The notes beneath the pieces are model-generated. The model ran no database searches. It was given only the letters and a program-made list of their open reading frames with translations, and was not told where the DNA came from. From IMG/VR virus record IMGVR_UViG_3300037070_002162, positions 1-20,243 of that record: DNA of 20,243 nucleotides. One strand, 5' to 3'. Both the position numbers and the translations under genes were made by a program. Shown here piece after piece: positions 1-18,108 of the stretch (positions are counted from its first letter, which is position 1; each line of letters opens with the position of its first letter). Source of the DNA: a virus.

Positions 1-754
1 CTAAGCCGCCCGGTAGGGTGTCGTCGGTCGTAGTCTCTACGGCGTCCCCGTCCTCCAGGCCGTGTGCGGCGGACGTGAAGATGTTCGTGGTAGCGTCGAC
101 CGTGAAGGTGTCAGACGTCTGGGTGACCGCCGCGGTGTACACCCGGCCCGCTTCTGCCGTCATGTCGCGGAAGTATACGAAGGCTTCTGCCGCCGTCGAC
201 ACAGTATAGTCAATGGTGACATCCAGCGTGCTGGTGTCGATCTGCACGTCGTCCGGCAGCAAGGCGATGTTGGACTGCTCAAACTGGGCCGTGGATTCCG
301 CCAGACCTACCCAAAGGGCTGAGGTGTCAATGCCGTGTGAGGCCCCAGACTTGGTCAGGGTGCCTGAGGGAGGCGACAGGGTGTCCCGGGAAGATACTGA
401 AAAACTCGAATAGTAGTGAGCCGAGTCAGCAACGTCGAAGTCTCCGGCCTGAGACTCGGCGATCCGGCCGTATGCGATCAACGGCCCGCGCGTGGCGTTC
501 GTGAGATCGAGGGTGTTGGCTTGGTCCAGCTGAAACCGAATCGCCGTGCCGGAGTGATCCAGGCGGGTGACGCGTAGCGGCAGCCAGCCGTAGTACCCCT
601 CGTAGCCGTGCCGCGTGGACAGCTTGCCGTTGGCATTGGTATCCACGTTTTGCAGATCTTCGGCGCACCCGTCCGGCATCGACCCCTTCGCACTGAAGGT
701 GTCTATGCCCCGGGCCAAGTCTTTTTTGGTGATAGAGACTTTTGGAACAGCCAT
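1..754 (-). CDS. Probable tail nozzle/stopper-like virion protein (partial, N-terminal 251 residues)
   Basis: An open frame starts at the ATG at 754 and runs without a stop to the left window edge, so only the N-terminal half or so is present. It begins MAVPKVSITKKDLARG and continues with a segment reading ENVDT-like 'LQNVDTNANGKLSTRHGYEG', a pattern common near the start of short-tail nozzle/stopper proteins, which are rich in beta strands and list features of their bound segments. The rest is Thr/Asp/Val-rich and looks like beta structure. A Shine-Dalgarno-like AGGA lies 7 bases before the ATG. It follows the adaptor gene by 12 bases in the same operon, the position of the nozzle gene in podovirus modules. 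The function is inferred from position and general character; another virion protein is possible. Confidence 0.6.
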   Translation of the reverse strand, partial: MAVPKVSITKKDLARGIDTFSAKGSMPDGCAEDLQNVDTNANGKLSTRHGYEGYYGWLPLRVTRLDHSGTAIRFQLDQANTLDLTNATRGPLIAYGRIAESQAGDFDVADSAHYYSSFSVSSRDTLSPPSGTLTKSGASHGIDTSALWVGLAESTAQFEQSNIALLPDDVQIDTSTLDVTIDYTVSTAAEAFVYFRDMTAEAGRVYTAAVTQTSDTFTVDATTNIFTSAAHGLEDGDAVETTTDDTLPGGL

Positions 755-766
755 GAAAGATCCTGG

Positions 767-1738
767 TTAGCGGTAACGCTGGAGCGGAGACAGTCGGCGG
801 CCCCAGTACGGGGAGCGCTTCTCGACCCGGCGGGTCGCTTCGCGGCCGGCCCACATCGACTTGACGTCGTCCTCAAGTTCTTTGAGGGCGGCGTAGTCTT
901 CTTGCGACGGCTCGGTCGTCTTGCGTTTCAGTTCCACCACGGCGTACTGAACCAGATAGTCGTAGTAGTCTTGGAGTAGGGTGGGCACCGCGGTCCCATT
1001 GGCAATGCACACGTAGTCGTCTTGATTGACGGTGGTATCGCCGGTAGTTGGGATGGCAACGGCCACGGTCTGACCAAACACGGTAACACGATCCAGGCCA
1101 GTAGTTTTGTGGGTAATCGCAAGATTGTCCTCGTCGATCCCATTGACCTGCAGGGTGACCTTTACCAGTCCGGTCGTACCGTCGACCACATTAATGAACG
1201 CTTTCAGTGCATTAATGTTGGTCGTCAGGTCCGACCCGAGCGCGTCGAGATACAGCCGGTTGCTGGCGACGTCGACCGTTGTGATGCGGCCCTGGGACTT
1301 GACCAGCTCGGGGGGCCGAACCTGGTACCGGATGCGGACGGTCGTGCCCGTTCGGGGCGTAGGATACAGCCGGAGCTTGTTGGCGACCTGAGCGTAGTAC
1401 AAGGGGATCGAGCTGGTGGTGGAGTCGTTGTCATACTCCGTCATCTGACGCAGCTCGGCGGGCTCGACCGGGTAAGTCACCCCACCCGATACCGCCACAA
1501 CCTCGTTCACGACTAGGCCAAACGCTTGTTCGGGGATGGTGAATTCGCGGGTGCCGTCGCCGGTCAGCTCGACCTCGCGCTTGAAGATCGGCGCGTACCG
1601 ACGGCCGGCCAACCGCACCAGCTTCTGCTGGCCGCGATTGAGCGCCTGCAGGATGACCGGGTCAGTCAGATCCGTGGTGTTTTCCTCGTCCATTTGACTG
1701 CGGACTTGGGAAAGCAACTCGTCGGTAGTGATTGCCAT
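767..1738 (-). CDS. Head-tail adaptor (connector) protein
   Basis: A 323-residue protein. Its N-terminus (TTDELLSQVRSQMDEEN, then a helical segment ending in RLAGRRYAP) and the following beta-rich domain match the general build of adaptor proteins of short-tailed phages (SU10-adaptor/gp4-like families), which bind under the portal ring and join it to the tail nozzle. The C-terminal part (about 255-323) is helical and charged, with YLVQYAVVELKRKTTEPS and a Trp/Arg-rich tail. The ATG overlaps the stop of the upstream frame as TAATG, and GGGAG stands 7 bases before it. The next gene begins 12 bases after its stop. The family call is from recalled sequence character and operon position, with no search behind it. 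Confidence 0.7.
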   Translation of the reverse strand: MAITTDELLSQVRSQMDEENTTDLTDPVILQALNRGQQKLVRLAGRRYAPIFKREVELTGDGTREFTIPEQAFGLVVNEVVAVSGGVTYPVEPAELRQMTEYDNDSTTSSIPLYYAQVANKLRLYPTPRTGTTVRIRYQVRPPELVKSQGRITTVDVASNRLYLDALGSDLTTNINALKAFINVVDGTTGLVKVTLQVNGIDEDNLAITHKTTGLDRVTVFGQTVAVAIPTTGDTTVNQDDYVCIANGTAVPTLLQDYYDYLVQYAVVELKRKTTEPSQEDYAALKELEDDVKSMWAGREATRRVEKRSPYWGRRLSPLQRYR

Positions 1739-1902
1739 TAACTAGCTCCCTGCACCCAGACGGGGCGATCGGCCGAGTCATCGTCGTTCTCGGTCTCTTG
1801 GCCGTTGGCTGCGTCCTCCTTTTGGAGTTGGCGGCCCTTGGCTTTCTTGCGGCGGCGCTCGGTTTCCAGTTCGTCATCCTCAGGCGGCGAGCCCTTCAGC
1901 AT
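1738..1902 (-). CDS. Downstream ORF, probable -1 frameshift extension of the acidic protein
   Basis: A frame open from a TGA near 2092 to the TAA at 1738-1740. Its first canonical start is the ATG at 1902, which would give 54 residues (MLKGSPPEDDELETERRRKK, then a Lys/Gln-rich linker and an acidic tail ending WVQGAS). No Shine-Dalgarno sequence precedes that ATG, unlike almost every other gene here. The frame is protein-like well upstream of the ATG, back to a CCCAAAG heptamer at 1944-1950 in the preceding gene. Its stop overlaps the adaptor start as TAATG, the junction style used across the operon, which supports real translation. It may therefore be made mainly as a C-terminal extension by -1 frameshifting rather than alone. 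Confidence 0.5.
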   Translation of the reverse strand: MLKGSPPEDDELETERRRKKAKGRQLQKEDAANGQETENDDDSADRPVWVQGAS

Positions 1903-1919
1903 GCTGACGAACGCGGACT

Positions 1920-2168
1920 TTACATCCGAGGACCGCCCTTCCGCTTTGGGGGCGGGGGAACCTCCTCGTCGGACTCGGACGGCTCGGCCATGTCTTCGTC
2001 GAGCGATTCCATCTCGCCCATGTCCATGGCGGTGTCTTCTTCGTCGGCCGACATGTCGCCGCCGTCGGCATACGAGGCGTCGAGGATGTCGTCAAGCATC
2101 GGCTCGTCGTTTAGCTCCGGGTACGCCCTTTTCAGCTCAGCGATGAGCTTCTTGACTTGTGCTGGCAT
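1920..2168 (-). CDS. Small acidic phage protein, zero-frame product
   Basis: An 82-residue protein. The first 20 residues form a basic helix (MPAQVKKLIAELKRAYPELN); residues 21-69 are strongly acidic with several Met; residues 70-74 read V then four prolines; a short basic end follows (KRKGGPRM). The start is ATG with GGAG 6 to 7 bases upstream. Codons 74-75 form part of the heptamer C-CCA-AAG, a canonical X-XXY-YYZ slippery sequence. A -1 slip there would replace the last 7 residues by 68 others and give a 143-residue protein. I do not recognise the family. The position next to the adaptor and the lysis-like gene suggests a virion or assembly role, but nothing in the sequence proves it. Confidence 0.75.
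   Translation of the reverse strand: MPAQVKKLIAELKRAYPELNDEPMLDDILDASYADGGDMSADEEDTAMDMGEMESLDEDMAEPSESDEEVPPPPKRKGGPRM
1944..1950 (-). promoter_or_regulatory. Putative -1 ribosomal frameshift site (CCCAAAG)
   Basis: On the minus strand the zero-frame codons are CCC-CCA-AAG, giving the heptamer C-CCA-AAG. After a -1 slip both tRNAs re-pair as CCC and AAA. It follows four consecutive proline codons, which slow ribosomes. Five bases that can pair (GCGGA with TCCGC) begin right at the site, giving a weak downstream stem. The -1 frame is open from here to the adaptor start. Seen: the heptamer, the polyproline run and the open frame. Inferred: that slippage really occurs. Confidence 0.45.
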
Positions 2169-2185: not shown

Positions 2186-2467
2186 TTAAGGCCAGGTAAG
2201 GCCAAGTAGGTTTGCGAGGCCGATCATGGCCGTGATTCCTAAACACAACGATATCACAATCTTGGCTGCTTTACCAGGCAAAAGTGCTGCCGCTACATTT
2301 TCTTCAGCACGGCCCAGTCGCCCCTCCACCGCTTCCACCCGGCGTGCCGTCGCTTCCGTTGTCGCCTCAACGCGGGCAACGGAGACCTTGACGTCCGAGA
2401 GTATCTCGCCTTGCCGGGTGACGGCGTCGCGAAGCCACGCGTGATATTCATTCAGGTCGTCGCTCAT
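2186..2467 (-). CDS. Coiled-coil, C-terminally membrane-anchored protein (XhlA-like, lysis-associated candidate)
   Basis: A 93-residue protein. Residues about 10-62 have heptad-like spacing of Val/Ala/Leu with many Glu/Arg (VKVSVARVEATTEATARRVE), typical of a coiled coil. Residues about 68-92 form one hydrophobic membrane segment (KIVISLCLGITAMIGLANLL). This is the build of XhlA/haemolysin-like phage proteins that sit beside holins and help lysis. The start overlaps the stop of the upstream gene as ATGA and has little Shine-Dalgarno sequence of its own, so it is probably translated by coupling. No holin or endolysin partner is visible in the window. A tail-anchored virion protein is the main alternative. 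Confidence 0.6.
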   Translation of the reverse strand: MSDDLNEYHAWLRDAVTRQGEILSDVKVSVARVEATTEATARRVEAVEGRLGRAEENVAAALLPGKAAKIVISLCLGITAMIGLANLLGLTWP

Positions 2468-2700
2468 ATGGATGCAGCTGGAGGCATTACTTCCAGGTCC
2501 TCTTCAGTGAGTTCGTCTTCCGGCTTTCGTCGTTTGGGTCTGGCAGGGAAGATGGGCATGGGACCTCCCGGTCCCGCAGCCGGCGGCCCAACAAAGTCCG
2601 GATCCTCTTCCGCCCCAATCTCTTCCTGAGGATCTGAGCCAAATAACGTGTCCAGCTCTTCTTGGGTCGGCGGCTCCGGCATTTTACGGGGACGTTTCAT
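2464..2700 (-). CDS. Small Pro/Glu-rich hypothetical phage protein
   Basis: A 78-residue, unstructured-looking protein with a basic start (MKRPRKMPEPPTQEELD), an acidic middle (residues 20-35), a Pro/Gly stretch (PPAAGPGGPMPIFPARPKRR) and an acidic end. GAGG lies 7 bases before the ATG, and both ends overlap neighbours as ATGA. I do not recognise it. Together with the two acidic frames further down the operon it forms a cluster of short charged disordered proteins between the lipoprotein and the adaptor. Their conserved position suggests virion or assembly accessory factors, which is inference only. Confidence 0.65.
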   Translation of the reverse strand: MKRPRKMPEPPTQEELDTLFGSDPQEEIGAEEDPDFVGPPAAGPGGPMPIFPARPKRRKPEDELTEEDLEVMPPAASI

Positions 2701-3623
2701 GGTTTACCTCGAAGAATACGATCCAACAACAGCAGGTCACCGCCCGAGTGGGTGGCCCCGCGCTCGGGACACGGCACCCAGCCGTCGGCACCCGAGTCTT
2801 CCATGGTCACCCAGGCCGCGCACCGGTCGGCGCTGGTCGGCAGTCGGTCAGTCGGCCACATCCGCACGCCGGTCTCGTTGGTCAGCAGGACGTCCAGCCC
2901 TTGGGGGTCGGCCCCCAGCCAGCGCATCGCGGCCACGTAGAACAAGGGATTCCAGTCTTCGCGGGTCAGGTGGCGGCGTAGACAATCAGCCCCTTCCTCG
3001 GGGATCTGTCCGTGGATTTCGCCCCACAGCAGGATTTGCAGGACCTGCAGTTGCGCTTCATAACCAACCGTCTCGGAGTCCCAGGACGGTTGGATCAGAA
3101 GCGCCCAAGCTGGGGGATGTCCGCCCAATTCATATATTGTCCAGGCAAGCAGGGATAGCATGTTGGTGTTTAGTAGGGTATCGACGCCGGCCAGCCGGCC
3201 GTCACCCATAAACCAGGAGCGGCCGTTGCCATAGTCCCACAAACGGTCGACTACGTCCAGCCGGTTGGTGGTCCAAGCCCACCACAGCACACTCAGGATG
3301 GCGTCCCGGGAGATGGTGGAGCGAGACTGCTTATTGGCCCAGCATTCGGGGTAAGTGGTCGGTCGCCGTAACCAACGTCCGGGGGACTGCTCGGCGGTCT
3401 CCAGCTGGACTGGGGCGCCGCTCGCGGCCAGCAAGCCGGAGTACGTGGTGGCGTCGCAGTGTTCGACGTCGGCAAATCCAAAAGGATCCACAGCCGCGGG
3501 TTCTAGGGTGCGATACAGCTCCGCCCGAAGGGCGAGGGCTGGAGGCGTATTGGTGGGAGTGCTGGTGTGCTCTTTGCCACATCCCAGCAAGAAACCCAAA
3601 CAAACAAGTAGGGTTTTGTTCAT
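2697..3623 (-). CDS. Phage-encoded lipoprotein of unknown function
   Basis: A 308-residue protein with a short signal sequence and lipobox: MNKTLLVCLGFLLGC, with the acylated Cys expected at residue 15 and Gly at +2, so no Asp inner-membrane retention signal. A Ser/Thr/Pro linker follows to about residue 30. The rest is Trp- and Leu-rich with repeated helical stretches (for example ILSVLWWAWTTNRLDVVDRL and LFYVAAMRWLGADPQ), suggesting an alpha-solenoid. The start overlaps the fibre stop as TAATG, with AGGA upstream. Known phage lipoproteins include outer spanins and superinfection-exclusion proteins that block receptors; this one is much larger than typical spanins. Its site directly behind the fibre makes a receptor-blocking or cell-envelope role attractive, but that is inference. 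Confidence 0.7.
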   Translation of the reverse strand: MNKTLLVCLGFLLGCGKEHTSTPTNTPPALALRAELYRTLEPAAVDPFGFADVEHCDATTYSGLLAASGAPVQLETAEQSPGRWLRRPTTYPECWANKQSRSTISRDAILSVLWWAWTTNRLDVVDRLWDYGNGRSWFMGDGRLAGVDTLLNTNMLSLLAWTIYELGGHPPAWALLIQPSWDSETVGYEAQLQVLQILLWGEIHGQIPEEGADCLRRHLTREDWNPLFYVAAMRWLGADPQGLDVLLTNETGVRMWPTDRLPTSADRCAAWVTMEDSGADGWVPCPERGATHSGGDLLLLDRILRGKP

Positions 3624-6600
3624 TAGCGCATCCTACGAGCGCGAATTGACCCAAACAGCTGCACAGTGCCAGTGCCGTGAGTGAAGCTGGCGATGGCCTT
3701 CAGATAGTAGGTCGTTGTCGCAGTGATAGAGACGCGGAAAGTGGGGAGTACAAGAGAGATGTCGTTCGATGCAGCAAACGTAGCGGCTAGCTGGTTCGTG
3801 TTGCGGTTCAGGTCTCTACCAGTCGTGCTGGTGCCGATGGCCGTTCCAATCCAAGCGCTGGCGCTAGAGAGCGTATCTGGTGCGCCTCCACCAAGCTCAA
3901 AGCGCACAACACCACCGATGTCCCAGTCGCCGGCAGTTAGTGTGATGCCAGTCTCACCAGTCGTTGTGTTCGTGCCGAACGTTGCGTTGACGTCAACCGA
4001 GCCTGTAAAAACACCACCCGAAGACGTTTCAACAGAGAGCGCAGAAGAGCGGACGTTTTCCAGGTACTCACCCACGTACCCAGTAGCAGCACTGTCGTTG
4101 GTGTTGGTGCCCAACAGCTGTCCAGCGTTCTTAACGAGACCGGAGTGAGTCTGCGTGACTTCACCAAAGCCTACAGCAGCACCAGCAGCCTTCTTCTTCA
4201 CACGCCAGTAGCTAGTGCTGGGCCAGTCCACAGCAGGGGCATCGTCGTTGGCGATGTTCTGGTATCGCGCAAAGTAGACTCGGACGGATGTTGCGCCACT
4301 GCTGTCGATGTATGCACCAGAACCACCCGAAAGTGATCCAGCAGCAGACATCATGTTTTGTACTGCTGCGTTACTGATTACGGCGTTTGCAGCAGGGTAC
4401 CAGACGCTTTGATTCTCAGAGTATTCCAGGCTGATCTCATCCGTGGCCCGGATAGTCGTTTGGAACGTGACTGTCTTGATGCGAGTGGTAGTTAGTGCTC
4501 CGCCCATGATCGCGCCGCCAGGGCCGTACACGGTAGTGCTGTCGTTGGCGTCCCAGGTGCCAGCGACGGCGGCATACTCAACGTCGTTCTGGGCTACGTT
4601 GATCGTGCCGCTACCAGTCCACTCGGCAATGGGGATCTTGGCTGTAAAACCAATAGTGTCGCCACTAGCGATCGTTACAGGAGCTGCATCAGTCAACAGG
4701 CCACCAGCAACCTCACCAGGCTCACCACCATACTGAACAGTTAACTGCGTAGTGGAATTGTTGTAAACCACCAACGCTGACCGATTCTGTTGGGCTGAGG
4801 CGTCATCAAAGAAGCCAACACCAAGGGGTGTATTGCCAGACGACGGCAGTGCCGCGGTGTCTATAGTGAACCCAGACGGCAGCTCAAAGCGAAACGAACC
4901 CGCGCCGGTGGTCCCGCCAGAGGCAGTCCAAAAGGCGTACAGGTTCATGTACTGACCTTCGCGGTAGTAGTAGGTCTGCGAAAGCGTGCCAGCTACGTTC
5001 GTTGTAGTCCCATTCTTGACTGTCAGCGTGATAGCTGTAGGAGGGCCAACTATAGCACCCTGTGGCTGTGTGCCCGGTCCAACCACCACGTCACTGATGA
5101 CAATGCCGCCGTCGGTGGTCATGTCCCCAGTGGCGCGGATCACTAGCGACAGGGTCGCCGTGGTGCTCGCATCGAAGCTGGTAGTGAACACCCCGTCAGC
5201 AGCAGGGATGGCAGTAGTAACAGGCGTGTGAAGGAACGTGGTCCTGTCGGCCTGCGTGGTGATGCCCACCGCCAGCTGCCCAGCAGTGTAGGTCCCCGTG
5301 GTCTTCTGCGCCCAGGAAATCTTGAGCTTCTTGGACAGGTCTACATCATCAAGTGTGAAGTCGTAATAGACGTAGTCCGCCACCGACTGCGTGTTGGCAT
5401 CGGCGGTGATCTTGATACCACTGCCGGTAGTAAACTCGCGAGGAAGATCAGCCGCCGTCGTGGTCGTCGCCACATCGAGATCGCCAACATTGGCCCAACC
5501 ACTGGCCGTACTGGTCCCCTGGACGTAGTTCTTCTCACCAGCACCAGCACCAACAGCACTTTCTGTGCCGTCGCTGTTCTTCTGATACAGTTTCTTGTCG
5601 GTCTTGGCGTAAACACTGACACGCCCGGAGGCAGGAGTGCCTGGGGCCGTCTGCTCCACAAACTCAAGGCCACCGTCTTCTCCGACCGCAACGCGAGTCG
5701 TGAGGGCATTCGCTGAACTACCGCTGCCGCCGGCCGCTGCGGTCTGCAGCTTCAGCTCGCCGCCCACGCCGGTACCCGTACCCGCGCCCGCCGCGAGGAT
5801 CAAATCAGCGCCAGCCACGTTGCTGCCGCTGCCGGTGGTGCCGTTGATCGTCACTGACGTCGGCGTGGCGTGAGTTAGGCCCTTGCCAAAGTAGACCGAA
5901 TTGATTGGGTATCCAGACGATCCAGCTACGAAGGTGTTGCTGGCAGTGGTTGTGGCGTCACGCCCCAGCAGGATCGAGCCCGCAGTCGCCGCGCCAAAAG
6001 TAGTGTCTGCTCCTACCGCTACGTTACCGGCTCCGGTATCCAGTGTCAGTGCCGCCTGGTATCCAATGGCCACGTTCTTGGTGCCAGTGGTCACGTTGAC
6101 CATAGCCGACCGTCCAAGGGCCGTGTTGGAGGCCGCCGTGGAGTTATATCCGGCGGCTCGACCCACATGCACGGAGTCGTTCGACGTCGCGCTGTAGCCA
6201 GCTTCCAGGCCAACAAACACGTTGCCGGATTGATTGGTAAGGTTATGTCCTGCGTCGTAACCCAAGAGGGTATTGCCAGACCCAGACAACAAGCTGCTAC
6301 CGGCTTGCCAGCCCACCAACGTATTGGACCCGCCATCCGTAAGCGCGGCGCCCGCTCCCTTGCCGATCACCGTAAGTCGTGTGGCCGTCGTGTGGGCGGT
6401 GTTGGTAGTGTTGCCGATCCAGGTATTATCGGTACCTTTATTGTCCACGAACGTCGTGGCATCGAGCACGAACACCCCACCAGCCGTCACGTTGCCGGTA
6501 AAGGATGCCGAAGGACCGCTGACCGTTTTGTTGGTCAGGGTTTCGCTGCCGGCCAGCGTCGCCAGGGTGCCGGTAGTCGGCAACGTCAGCGCCGTAGCTC

Positions 6601-7534
6601 CCGACGTTGTAAGGGCTAGATCGTGATTACCGCTACGCGTCAGGGTGGCCGCAGTATTGTTGGCTACCCCAGTGCCGCCGTTGGCGGCGTCAAGCACGCC
6701 GGTGATACCGGTCGTGGGCAGTCCGGTGCAGTTGGTCAGCGTGCCGCTGGTGGGTGTGCCTAGGAGCGGAGCAATGAATGTGGGAGTATTGGCAAACACC
6801 AACGCTCCACTGCCGGTCTCGTCGCTGATCACCCCCGCCAACTGGGCCGACGTGGTGGCAGCAAACTGCGCCAGGGTGCTGCCGGTGTATGCCGCGGTGC
6901 CGCCGGCACCGAACACCACGGTGGAGCCGTCGCTGCCGGTGAAGGTCAGGGTGTTGCTAGCGGTCAGTGTCTTGCCGTCAGCGATCGTCAGCGTGGCCCC
7001 TGTGGCCGGAGCCGTGATGGCGACCTTGTTGATACTGGTGGCCGACGCCACCCCCAACGTAGGGGTAGTCAGAATCGGACTGGTCAGGGTCTTATTAGTG
7101 AGGGTTTCGGCGCCCGCCAGCGTGGACAGCGTGCCTGTGGTGGGCAGTGTCAGTGCCGTGGCCCCGGTCGTGGTCAAGGCAAGGTCATGGTTGCCGCTAC
7201 GGGTGAGGGTGGCTGCGGCATTATTGGCCACGCCAGTGCCGCCAAAATCCGCACCAAGCACACCCGTGATCGACCCGGCAGGAAGTCCCGTGCAGTTAGT
7301 AAGCACACCAGACACCGGCGTGCCAAGTGCCGGAGCTACCAACGTCTTGTTGGACAAAGTGTCCGTCGAGTCGGTGGACACCAAAGTCTTGGACCCGGTC
7401 TGGTTTGGGAGGGTAAACGTGGCCGTGCTGGCGTTGGCCCCCTTTTCCAGAGCGGTCTCGTCTGCTGCACCATCTTTCAGAACGATATTATCGCCTGCCT
7501 GGCGTAGACTGCCCCGACCGCGTTTCAGTCCCAT
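3623..7534 (-). CDS. Tail fibre / receptor-binding protein with repeat shaft and YadA-like head region
   Basis: A 1303-residue, Thr/Gly/Ala/Ser-rich protein. Residues about 70-150 and 256-337 are two copies of one repeat (each with GGTGVANN, TLTRSGNHDLALTT and LAGxETLTNKT), typical of collagen-like or beta-helical phage fibre shafts. Residues about 368-530 carry short repeats around NTLLGYDAGHN and NVAIGYQAAL, as in the left-handed parallel beta-roll heads of trimeric adhesins such as YadA. Later parts are mixed beta domains, including a segment around LLGTNTNDSAATGYVGEYL often met in phage fibres, and a C-terminus ending FGSIRARRMR. The ATG has GGAGG 5 bases upstream, abutting a GC-rich hairpin. 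It probably forms trimers that bind the host surface. Host receptor and any enzymatic activity cannot be read from the sequence. Confidence 0.85.
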   Translation of the reverse strand: MGLKRGRGSLRQAGDNIVLKDGAADETALEKGANASTATFTLPNQTGSKTLVSTDSTDTLSNKTLVAPALGTPVSGVLTNCTGLPAGSITGVLGADFGGTGVANNAAATLTRSGNHDLALTTTGATALTLPTTGTLSTLAGAETLTNKTLTSPILTTPTLGVASATSINKVAITAPATGATLTIADGKTLTASNTLTFTGSDGSTVVFGAGGTAAYTGSTLAQFAATTSAQLAGVISDETGSGALVFANTPTFIAPLLGTPTSGTLTNCTGLPTTGITGVLDAANGGTGVANNTAATLTRSGNHDLALTTSGATALTLPTTGTLATLAGSETLTNKTVSGPSASFTGNVTAGGVFVLDATTFVDNKGTDNTWIGNTTNTAHTTATRLTVIGKGAGAALTDGGSNTLVGWQAGSSLLSGSGNTLLGYDAGHNLTNQSGNVFVGLEAGYSATSNDSVHVGRAAGYNSTAASNTALGRSAMVNVTTGTKNVAIGYQAALTLDTGAGNVAVGADTTFGAATAGSILLGRDATTTASNTFVAGSSGYPINSVYFGKGLTHATPTSVTINGTTGSGSNVAGADLILAAGAGTGTGVGGELKLQTAAAGGSGSSANALTTRVAVGEDGGLEFVEQTAPGTPASGRVSVYAKTDKKLYQKNSDGTESAVGAGAGEKNYVQGTSTASGWANVGDLDVATTTTAADLPREFTTGSGIKITADANTQSVADYVYYDFTLDDVDLSKKLKISWAQKTTGTYTAGQLAVGITTQADRTTFLHTPVTTAIPAADGVFTTSFDASTTATLSLVIRATGDMTTDGGIVISDVVVGPGTQPQGAIVGPPTAITLTVKNGTTTNVAGTLSQTYYYREGQYMNLYAFWTASGGTTGAGSFRFELPSGFTIDTAALPSSGNTPLGVGFFDDASAQQNRSALVVYNNSTTQLTVQYGGEPGEVAGGLLTDAAPVTIASGDTIGFTAKIPIAEWTGSGTINVAQNDVEYAAVAGTWDANDSTTVYGPGGAIMGGALTTTRIKTVTFQTTIRATDEISLEYSENQSVWYPAANAVISNAAVQNMMSAAGSLSGGSGAYIDSSGATSVRVYFARYQNIANDDAPAVDWPSTSYWRVKKKAAGAAVGFGEVTQTHSGLVKNAGQLLGTNTNDSAATGYVGEYLENVRSSALSVETSSGGVFTGSVDVNATFGTNTTTGETGITLTAGDWDIGGVVRFELGGGAPDTLSSASAWIGTAIGTSTTGRDLNRNTNQLAATFAASNDISLVLPTFRVSITATTTYYLKAIASFTHGTGTVQLFGSIRARRMR

Positions 7535-14621: not shown

Positions 14622-14853
14622 CCTGGATGTTCTCGTCCTTGCGACCGGTCAGGCGTTTGATCTTCTTGCTGACGCGGTGCGAAAAGTCCTGGATCGGCGG
14701 GCCCCGATCTGCCGGGCCTTCGCCTTGCCGTGGCCCCGGCTGATTCGGGGCCCCGGTGAGAATCTGGACCACTACGGCGGGGGTGACGGAGGACCCAGGA
14801 CACTCGTGTCGCTGGCCACAAACCGAACACACTTCCTCGGGACTATCTTGCAT
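14608..14853 (-). CDS. Small CxxC (zinc-finger-like) phage protein
   Basis: An 81-residue protein from the second of two adjacent ATGs. That ATG has AGGAG 5 bases upstream and forms TGATG with the preceding stop; the first ATG (14856) would sit only 2 bases from the same site. The N-terminal region has CSVCGQRHECPGS, three Cys and a His within 12 residues, suggesting a half zinc knuckle. The middle is Pro/Gly-rich and the end basic then acidic (SKKIKRLTGRKDENIQDEPE). It overlaps the terminase start. It may assist packaging, but I do not recognise it and the metal-binding call is inference. Confidence 0.65.
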   Translation of the reverse strand: MQDSPEEVCSVCGQRHECPGSSVTPAVVVQILTGAPNQPGPRQGEGPADRGPPIQDFSHRVSKKIKRLTGRKDENIQDEPE

Positions 14854-15284
14854 CATAGCTCCTGCAGTACCCAGATCTCAGACACGGTCACTGCGTCGCC
14901 CGGAACTTCGAGGATAGGATCCGGGATGGCGTCGGGATCCGCAGGGATGGTGTCCGTGGTACCCACAACAACCACCCGACCCTTGCACAGCAGGGGTAGA
15001 TAGGTTTGGTCGGCCGCTCGGTCAACAAGGAATTTGAAGTAGTAGTTTCCGTCGGCCGTGATGGAGGCACTCTTGGTGTCGATCCAGTCGCCGTCCTGTC
15101 CTTCGGCAGTCTGAAGGGTAGCAGTGATGCTTCCCTCTACATTGACATCCACAGCCACAAGCTTGACAACGAGATAACAGGAGCCAACCGCGGTGATTGC
15201 AAACTCCTCACTAGCCACCACCGTTTGGTCGCCGTCGAGGGTCACTGGATTCTTGACTACGTTCTTGGGTACGTAACCGTTCAT
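14853..15284 (-). CDS. Virion-like paralog A (tandem duplicate)
   Basis: A 143-residue strand-rich protein starting MNGYVPKNVV and ending VLQEL. It is clearly similar to the next gene upstream: the same six-residue start, the same EEFAITAVGS/KPFAITAGGS block, the same GSITATLQTA/GTITAKLQTA block, the same DQTYLPLL core followed by GRV, and the same last five residues. Relative to its partner it has about 15-20 extra residues near 110-128 (a Pro/Asp-rich loop, TIPADPDAIPDPILEVPGD). The start overlaps the partner's stop as TGATG, with AGGA upstream. The fold looks like a beta sandwich. Likely a small virion protein (head decoration or fibre-tip type); this is unproven. Confidence 0.7.
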   Translation of the reverse strand: MNGYVPKNVVKNPVTLDGDQTVVASEEFAITAVGSCYLVVKLVAVDVNVEGSITATLQTAEGQDGDWIDTKSASITADGNYYFKFLVDRAADQTYLPLLCKGRVVVVGTTDTIPADPDAIPDPILEVPGDAVTVSEIWVLQEL

Positions 15285-15664
15285 CAGAGTTCCTGAAGGA
15301 CTTCGACAGCGTCGATAGTGACGGTGTCGCCCGCGTTGGTGTTGACAATCAGAACTCGGCCCACATCCAGGAGGGGAAGATAGGTCTGGTCGCCAGCAGT
15401 CTCGACCATCAACTTGATGTAAAAGTTGCCGTCCTCGGTGATTGCGACCGTCTTGCTATCAACCCAATCATCTCCAATGGCAGTCTGAAGTTTGGCTGTG
15501 ATAGTGCCTACAACCGTGACATCGCTCGCCACGATCTTGATGACCATGTGTCGCGAACCACCGGCGGTGATCGCAAATGGCTTAGTGACAACCGTGCCGG
15601 CCTGGACACCCGCCACAGTCTGTGTCCCTGGCTTGATTACACTAGAGGGTACATACCCGTTCAT
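15284..15664 (-). CDS. Virion-like paralog B (tandem duplicate)
   Basis: A 126-residue strand-rich protein, MNGYVPSSVIKPGTQ to VLQEL, the shorter partner of the adjacent gene and without its acidic Pro-rich insertion. Shared blocks run across the whole length, so the pair comes from duplication of a complete gene rather than one domain. It follows a 70-base gap after the peptidase gene, the longest gap between genes in this part of the operon. Function is as for its partner: an unassigned small virion or assembly protein near the packaging genes. Confidence 0.7.
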   Translation of the reverse strand: MNGYVPSSVIKPGTQTVAGVQAGTVVTKPFAITAGGSRHMVIKIVASDVTVVGTITAKLQTAIGDDWVDSKTVAITEDGNFYIKLMVETAGDQTYLPLLDVGRVLIVNTNAGDTVTIDAVEVLQEL

Positions 15665-18022: not shown

Positions 18023-18108
18023 TGGTGGATCGGGTAGGATTCGAACCTACAAAGCCTTTCGGCGCCTGGTTTACAGCCAGGTGGGTTAAACCATTCCCCC
18101 ACCGATCC
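18023..18108 (-). tRNA. tRNA-Tyr (GUA), class II with long variable arm
   Basis: Acceptor stem GGATCGG/CCGATCC is perfect, followed by discriminator A and an encoded CCA. The anticodon arm is CCTGG, loop CTGTAAA, CCAGG, with anticodon GTA (18074-18072). The variable arm folds as GCC-GAAA-GGC, as expected of bacterial Tyr tRNAs. The T arm is GTAGG, TTCGAAT, CCTAC. It is the first element of the leftward cluster, 42 bases before the next gene. Length is 86 bases including CCA. Confidence 0.95.

Follow-up and report, generated by a model that had tools for sequence, protein, structure and literature searches.

The -1 frameshift of the lambda G/GT pair, located towards the 3' end of a small structural-module gene, yields the protein in two lengths, short and long, and is conserved in long-tailed phages. 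To our knowledge, few cases have been reported in short-tailed phages, namely those of the T7/T3 and kuravirus capsid genes and a predicted lysin/internal-virion pair. In T7/T3 and in kuraviruses, the shift extends the major capsid protein, and the slippery site of the kuravirus gene is GGGAAAG (PMC9965538). In the podovirus vB_AspP-H4/4, which infects Alteromonas, a -1 frameshift has been predicted between two overlapping late genes, those of the endolysin and of an internal virion protein (PMC5658483). The dnaX gene of Escherichia coli combines a Shine-Dalgarno (SD) element, the heptamer A_AAA_AAG and a stem, and its experimentally proven shift leads to a shorter product. In IS911 and the rest of the IS3 family, an upstream SD and an X_XXA_AAG heptamer join a second ORF in the -1 frame. 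A comparison of all 64 heptamers in E. coli ranked C_CCA_AAG first in efficiency (PMC4066793), with frameshifting of up to 54% when combined with a strong stimulator (PMC4066793; also PMC5009743). In this bacterium, -1 frameshifting is promoted by SD-like elements located 6-17 nt ahead of the motif (PMC4066793).

We analysed a window of 20,243 bases that makes up the IMG/VR virus record IMGVR_UViG_3300037070_002162 and is apparently a fragment. The phage is an uncultivated one. Its minus strand encodes a terminase, a portal (PHROGs match with E 2e-35), a scaffold, a capsid, a fibre, several small proteins and an adaptor, as well as the first part of a large tail gene. Our main conclusion, to which we give, as a judgement and not as a computed value, a probability of about two in three, is that the 3' end of a small acidic gene of this virion module carries a lineage-specific -1 ribosomal frameshift cassette with a layout like that of dnaX and IS911. 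The features of the region, all on the minus strand, are the following.

2-754, minus strand: start of the large tail gene, which is cut by the end of the contig and has a homologue of 1,851 aa in a relative (G001)
767-1738, minus strand: short-tail portal-tail adaptor, identified from the fold matches of its AlphaFold model (pLDDT 82)
1738-1943, minus strand: putative -1 frame extension, 68 codons plus the stop TAA (1740-1738), proposed from phase and codon usage
1851-1937, minus strand: predicted stem, with its first pair 6 nt past the heptamer (-40.4 kcal/mol, z -2.2)
1900-1902, minus strand: ATG 1902, rival start of the -1 ORF, first ATG in that frame and without an SD
1920-2168, minus strand: ORF1, acidic protein of 82 aa in the zero frame, homologous to ORF1 of the closest relative (L053) and with a syntenic acidic gene in relatives
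1944-1950, minus strand: slippery heptamer C_CCA_AAG, proposed from its phase and its efficiency in the literature
1961-1966, minus strand: AGGAGG, putative stimulator of frameshifting that resembles an SD and precedes the heptamer by 10 nt
2186-2467, minus strand: small protein of 93 aa with a hydrophobic C-terminus, upstream of ORF1, with similar-looking small ORFs in relatives

An earlier note on this DNA had proposed that slippage joins two acidic ORFs, and the elements it read from the letters are all in place. The sequence CCCAAAG at 1950-1944 is in phase as C_CCA_AAG, at codons 74-75 of the 82 codons of ORF1, and it lies, as an X_XXZ_ZZN motif, where ORF1 overlaps an open -1 frame. The latter runs from the TGA at 2094-2092 to the TAA at 1740-1738, which overlaps the ATG of the adaptor gene (1738) in a TAATG junction, and slippage would join 75 and 68 residues into a fusion of 143. 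ATG 1902 is the first ATG, GTG or TTG of the -1 frame and the only one ahead of a late GTG at 1755; its anti-SD pairing is just -0.4 kcal/mol. Taken alone, the upstream openness of the -1 frame (63 codons) is unremarkable, since 18.6% of positions equal it. The heptamer is 21 nt away from the zero-frame stop, a distance similar to the 26-nt mean of annotated phage frameshifts. The AlphaFold model of ORF1 predicts a short helical N-terminus (residues 2-34) followed by an acidic remainder of low confidence, and the sequence after residue 34 comprises an acidic linker, a proline run and a short basic end.

The AGGAGG at 1966-1961 was absent from the earlier note. We regard it as an exceptional candidate for an SD-like stimulator, with a spacing like that of dnaX and within the 6-17 nt in which such elements are effective. 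At -12.4 kcal/mol, its pairing with the anti-SD exceeds that of any scored gene start in the window and is matched at none of the 4,626 codon positions in the remaining genes, a nominal rarity that must be discounted because the test was picked after the site had been seen. The same hexamer occurs once elsewhere in these genes (15.8 kb). GAG codons abound in acidic genes, and we therefore reran the test on 16 homologous acidic genes, in which a pairing of -12 is reached at 2 of 1,433 positions. We rejected AGGAGG as an initiation site: there is no ATG, GTG or TTG at a usable spacing in any frame.

The heptamer itself also goes beyond chance, as in-frame heptamers are rare in the other genes of the window and none is flanked by an SD in related contigs. 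Just two in-frame XXXYYYZ heptamers were found in the other 16 genes (5,250 codons), and the three most efficient types are absent from them. Across ~162,000 ORF codons of related contigs, we identified 27 in-phase heptamers of these three types, none of which has an adjacent SD of -9 kcal/mol or better.

We used the other 16 genes to derive a codon-usage score for each frame. Before the heptamer, the zero frame is favoured (+44.5). Over the 67 codons after it, the -1 frame scores +28.7, against -34.9 for the zero frame and -45.8 for the remaining one. From the heptamer to ATG 1902 there are 14 codons, for which the -1 frame scores +1.8; of stop-free stretches read off-frame, 2.1% reach this value. 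The presence of coding-like codons upstream of ATG 1902 argues that coding in the -1 frame starts before this codon. The downstream stem adds little support. It is unremarkable for this genome, where 6-18% of in-gene stretches fold equally well (6th percentile for 94 nt and 18th percentile for 60 nt).

If the frameshift takes place, most ribosomes would translate ORF1 and stop at 1920, which would give the 82-aa protein. AGGAGG would pair with the 16S rRNA of an elongating ribosome holding tRNA-Pro and tRNA-Lys on C_CCA_AAG, and this pairing would strain the mRNA, such that a fraction of the ribosomes would re-pair on CCC AAA. The slipped ribosomes would then read the -1 frame to the TAATG junction and produce the 143-aa form, with 68 extra charged residues. 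Slippage presumably occurs in the host, perhaps at a rate of a few to tens of percent, and the short and long forms may serve head-to-tail assembly.

The locus resembles dnaX in its upstream SD-like element, in its X_XXA_AAG heptamer read by tRNA-Lys, and in the stem, predicted here 6 nt downstream. It differs from it because the shift would lead to a longer product and not to a shorter one, because the stem is not clearly exceptional, and because dnaX is experimentally proven whereas the present case is predicted. With IS911 and the IS3 family it shares the upstream SD and a heptamer joining a second ORF in the -1 frame, although the proteins are unrelated and there is no transposon here. T7/T3 and kuraviruses provide the precedent of a -1 frameshift in a virion gene of short-tailed phages, but in the window it is a small acidic gene that would be extended, the capsid gene being separate and intact. 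The vB_AspP-H4/4 site concerns other genes and is likewise a predicted one (PMC5658483).

The likeness to lambda G/GT requires more caution. The two have in common a -1 shift, proposed in the present case, that falls close to the end of a small structural-module gene and yields two forms of different length, and in this respect the comparison with tail assembly chaperones made in the earlier note stands as regards mechanism. It fails as regards position and family. The G/GT site lies between the major tail protein and the tape-measure genes, whereas here there is no tape-measure or tail-tube context, and the site is between the gene of the small hydrophobic protein and the adaptor. The acidic gene has no chaperone family match in PHROGs or Pfam. 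The cassette is thus not, by position or family, the tail assembly chaperone pair of long-tailed phages. The 93-aa hydrophobic protein may be holin-like; it has no family match in PHROGs or Pfam.

The short-tail adaptor that the note had placed beside the cassette is borne out by the predicted fold of gene 767-1738. Its sequence matches are weak. Foldseek matches its model to portal-tail and tail complexes of the PDB, including those of the short-tailed Pa223, VP1, GP4, SU10 and N4 (E 7e-8 to 6e-5), and the modelled fold is that of an adaptor. In G001, a relative of 61.8 kb, the adaptor is followed by the 1,851-aa protein, which is nozzle-like, and then by three large proteins rich in Ala and Gln, which resemble ejection proteins. 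Given the fold matches of the adaptor model and this gene order, the short-tail reading of the phage is sound.

We searched viral contigs for relatives using portal, adaptor and capsid alignments; the alignment of the tail gene was too variable for scanning. The closest relative found, L053, has 56% identity in TerL, 61% in the portal, and 58% in the capsid. No closer relative was recovered when the fused protein, the adaptor, or ORF1 together with that of L053 served as query, and neither the adaptor nor the 143-aa fusion had a match in 50,697 phage records. Every relative reaching the region has an acidic gene directly upstream of the adaptor, in a single frame. Conservation of the heptamer and of both frames, which had been suggested as a check of the frameshift, was not observed: the heptamer is missing from the corresponding place in all relatives found, the closest one tested being at 56% (TerL) and 61% (portal) identity, and their acidic genes have no in-phase heptamer near the gene end. 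In more distant relatives the acidic gene has one frame and there is no second ORF. In L053, the acidic ORF1 is homologous to that of the window (Smith-Waterman score of 78, 0 of 2000 shuffles), and a second small ORF precedes the adaptor, in the +1 frame, with its own ATG and GAGGA upstream. We detected no homology between this ORF and the -1 ORF of the window (ORF2). A separately started second gene in L053 weakens the frameshift idea; it does not refute it because the two ORF2s are not demonstrably homologous.

The -1 half has no significant similarity to any sequence found, including the C-termini of the tested relatives. Several matches noticed by eye were discarded as non-significant on shuffling, namely SAFVSM/GAFKAI (in L036) and a DDEL motif among the C-termini of relatives, and PKAxxRS and VQGxS in L053. 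The C-terminal motif SDEELMAELKKRG of more distant relatives has no significant occurrence in the window. The acidic protein of more distant relatives (L035-L051) has a conserved motif, SDEELMAELKKRGLMS, which is not significant in the window, L035 and L036 and was not seen in L053; it is possibly a short binding helix.

Other explanations have to be weighed against these results, and two of them, a separate gene and a one-base indel, are in our view less likely than the frameshift. ORF2 could be a small gene of its own, translated from ATG 1902, through coupling or reinitiation, by ribosomes that have terminated at the ORF1 stop (1920), in which case the heptamer and AGGAGG would be coincidental. 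The gap from this stop to ATG 1902 is just 17 nt, L053 has here a separate second small gene equipped with an SD and an ATG of its own, and the lack of an SD has one parallel in the window, the gene starting at 2467, although that start overlaps the upstream stop. We consider such a gene unlikely, given the missing SD of ATG 1902, the coding-like -1 codons ahead of it (2.1% by chance), and the lack of detectable homology between the ORF2s of the window and L053; it would also leave a rare heptamer and an exceptional SD unexplained. A slightly lower probability goes to an acidic gene that once had a single frame and suffered a one-base indel in the C5GC5AAAG run, by mutation or assembly error, with the heptamer as a by-product. 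The single-frame acidic protein of every relative fits this scenario, and a change in length of the C run before AAAG automatically yields an in-phase CCCAAAG. However, the other 16 genes (5,250 codons) are intact, with no frameshift among them, which shows that the contig is not error-rich, and the indel would be the sole frame error in its structural genes. It would not explain why the strongest SD stands at a stimulatory spacing, nor why the -1 half is unlike the C-terminus of any tested relative, and the 143-aa fusion exceeds all acidic homologues found (84-131 aa). The zero-frame tail past the heptamer, PKRKGGPRM, is at least as similar to PKRKKPKM of L053. Its conservation is suggestive, yet 13% of random tails score equally, so that this similarity gives no ground for rejecting the indel.

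It is very improbable that the -1 ORF is unexpressed, decaying DNA between ORF1 and the adaptor. We found no homologue of it, but its 67 codons carry a strong coding signal and its end overlaps the adaptor start exactly, as TAATG. The frameshift accounts together for the heptamer, for AGGAGG, and for two features of ATG 1902, its lack of an SD and the codon usage ahead of it. What the earlier note had called likely is thus strengthened by the SD-like element, the efficiency of the heptamer and codon usage, and receives no support from conservation; the cassette is present in one sequence only, which counts against it.

We know of no earlier report of a frameshift in this acidic gene. The case fits a known mechanism in an apparently new location, the acidic gene beside a short-tail adaptor. 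If true, it would place a stoichiometry-setting frameshift within the head-tail adaptor module of short-tailed phages and would show, in a natural setting, a strong upstream SD together with the heptamer that works best in E. coli. For the uncharacterised acidic gene, which is immediately upstream of the adaptor in all examined relatives, it would provide a tentative starting point. A broader proposal is doubtful: that a -1 frameshift stimulated by an SD provides some short-tailed phages with two forms, one short and one long, of a small acidic assembly protein beside the adaptor, a functional counterpart of G/GT for neck building or the loading of ejection proteins, the second part being a separate gene in other lineages.

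A few further observations concern the rest of the window and its relatives. An ORF of 308 aa (2697-3623), between the fibre gene and the small proteins, has no match in PHROGs or Pfam, but many relatives carry a homologue in the same position, with an identity of up to 37% (L040). Inspection by eye of the translated fibre gene (3623-7534, 1,303 aa) revealed long repeats within it, TLTNKTL...LTNCTGLP...TRSGNHDLALTT. Two adjacent small genes (14853-15284 and 15284-15664) are tandem paralogues, which both start with MNGYVP and align by eye over their full length; L004 and L005 have similar genes. A tRNA-Tyr (gta) gene at 18023-18108 on the minus strand, outside the structural module, could be phage-encoded or an attachment site. 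Finally, a LAGLIDADG-type sequence (AFLAGLVDTDGSVTV...) is found in L053 (3-430), in frame just before TerL residue ~58 and near the P-loop, and its sequence suggests that the large terminase of this relative carries an intein.
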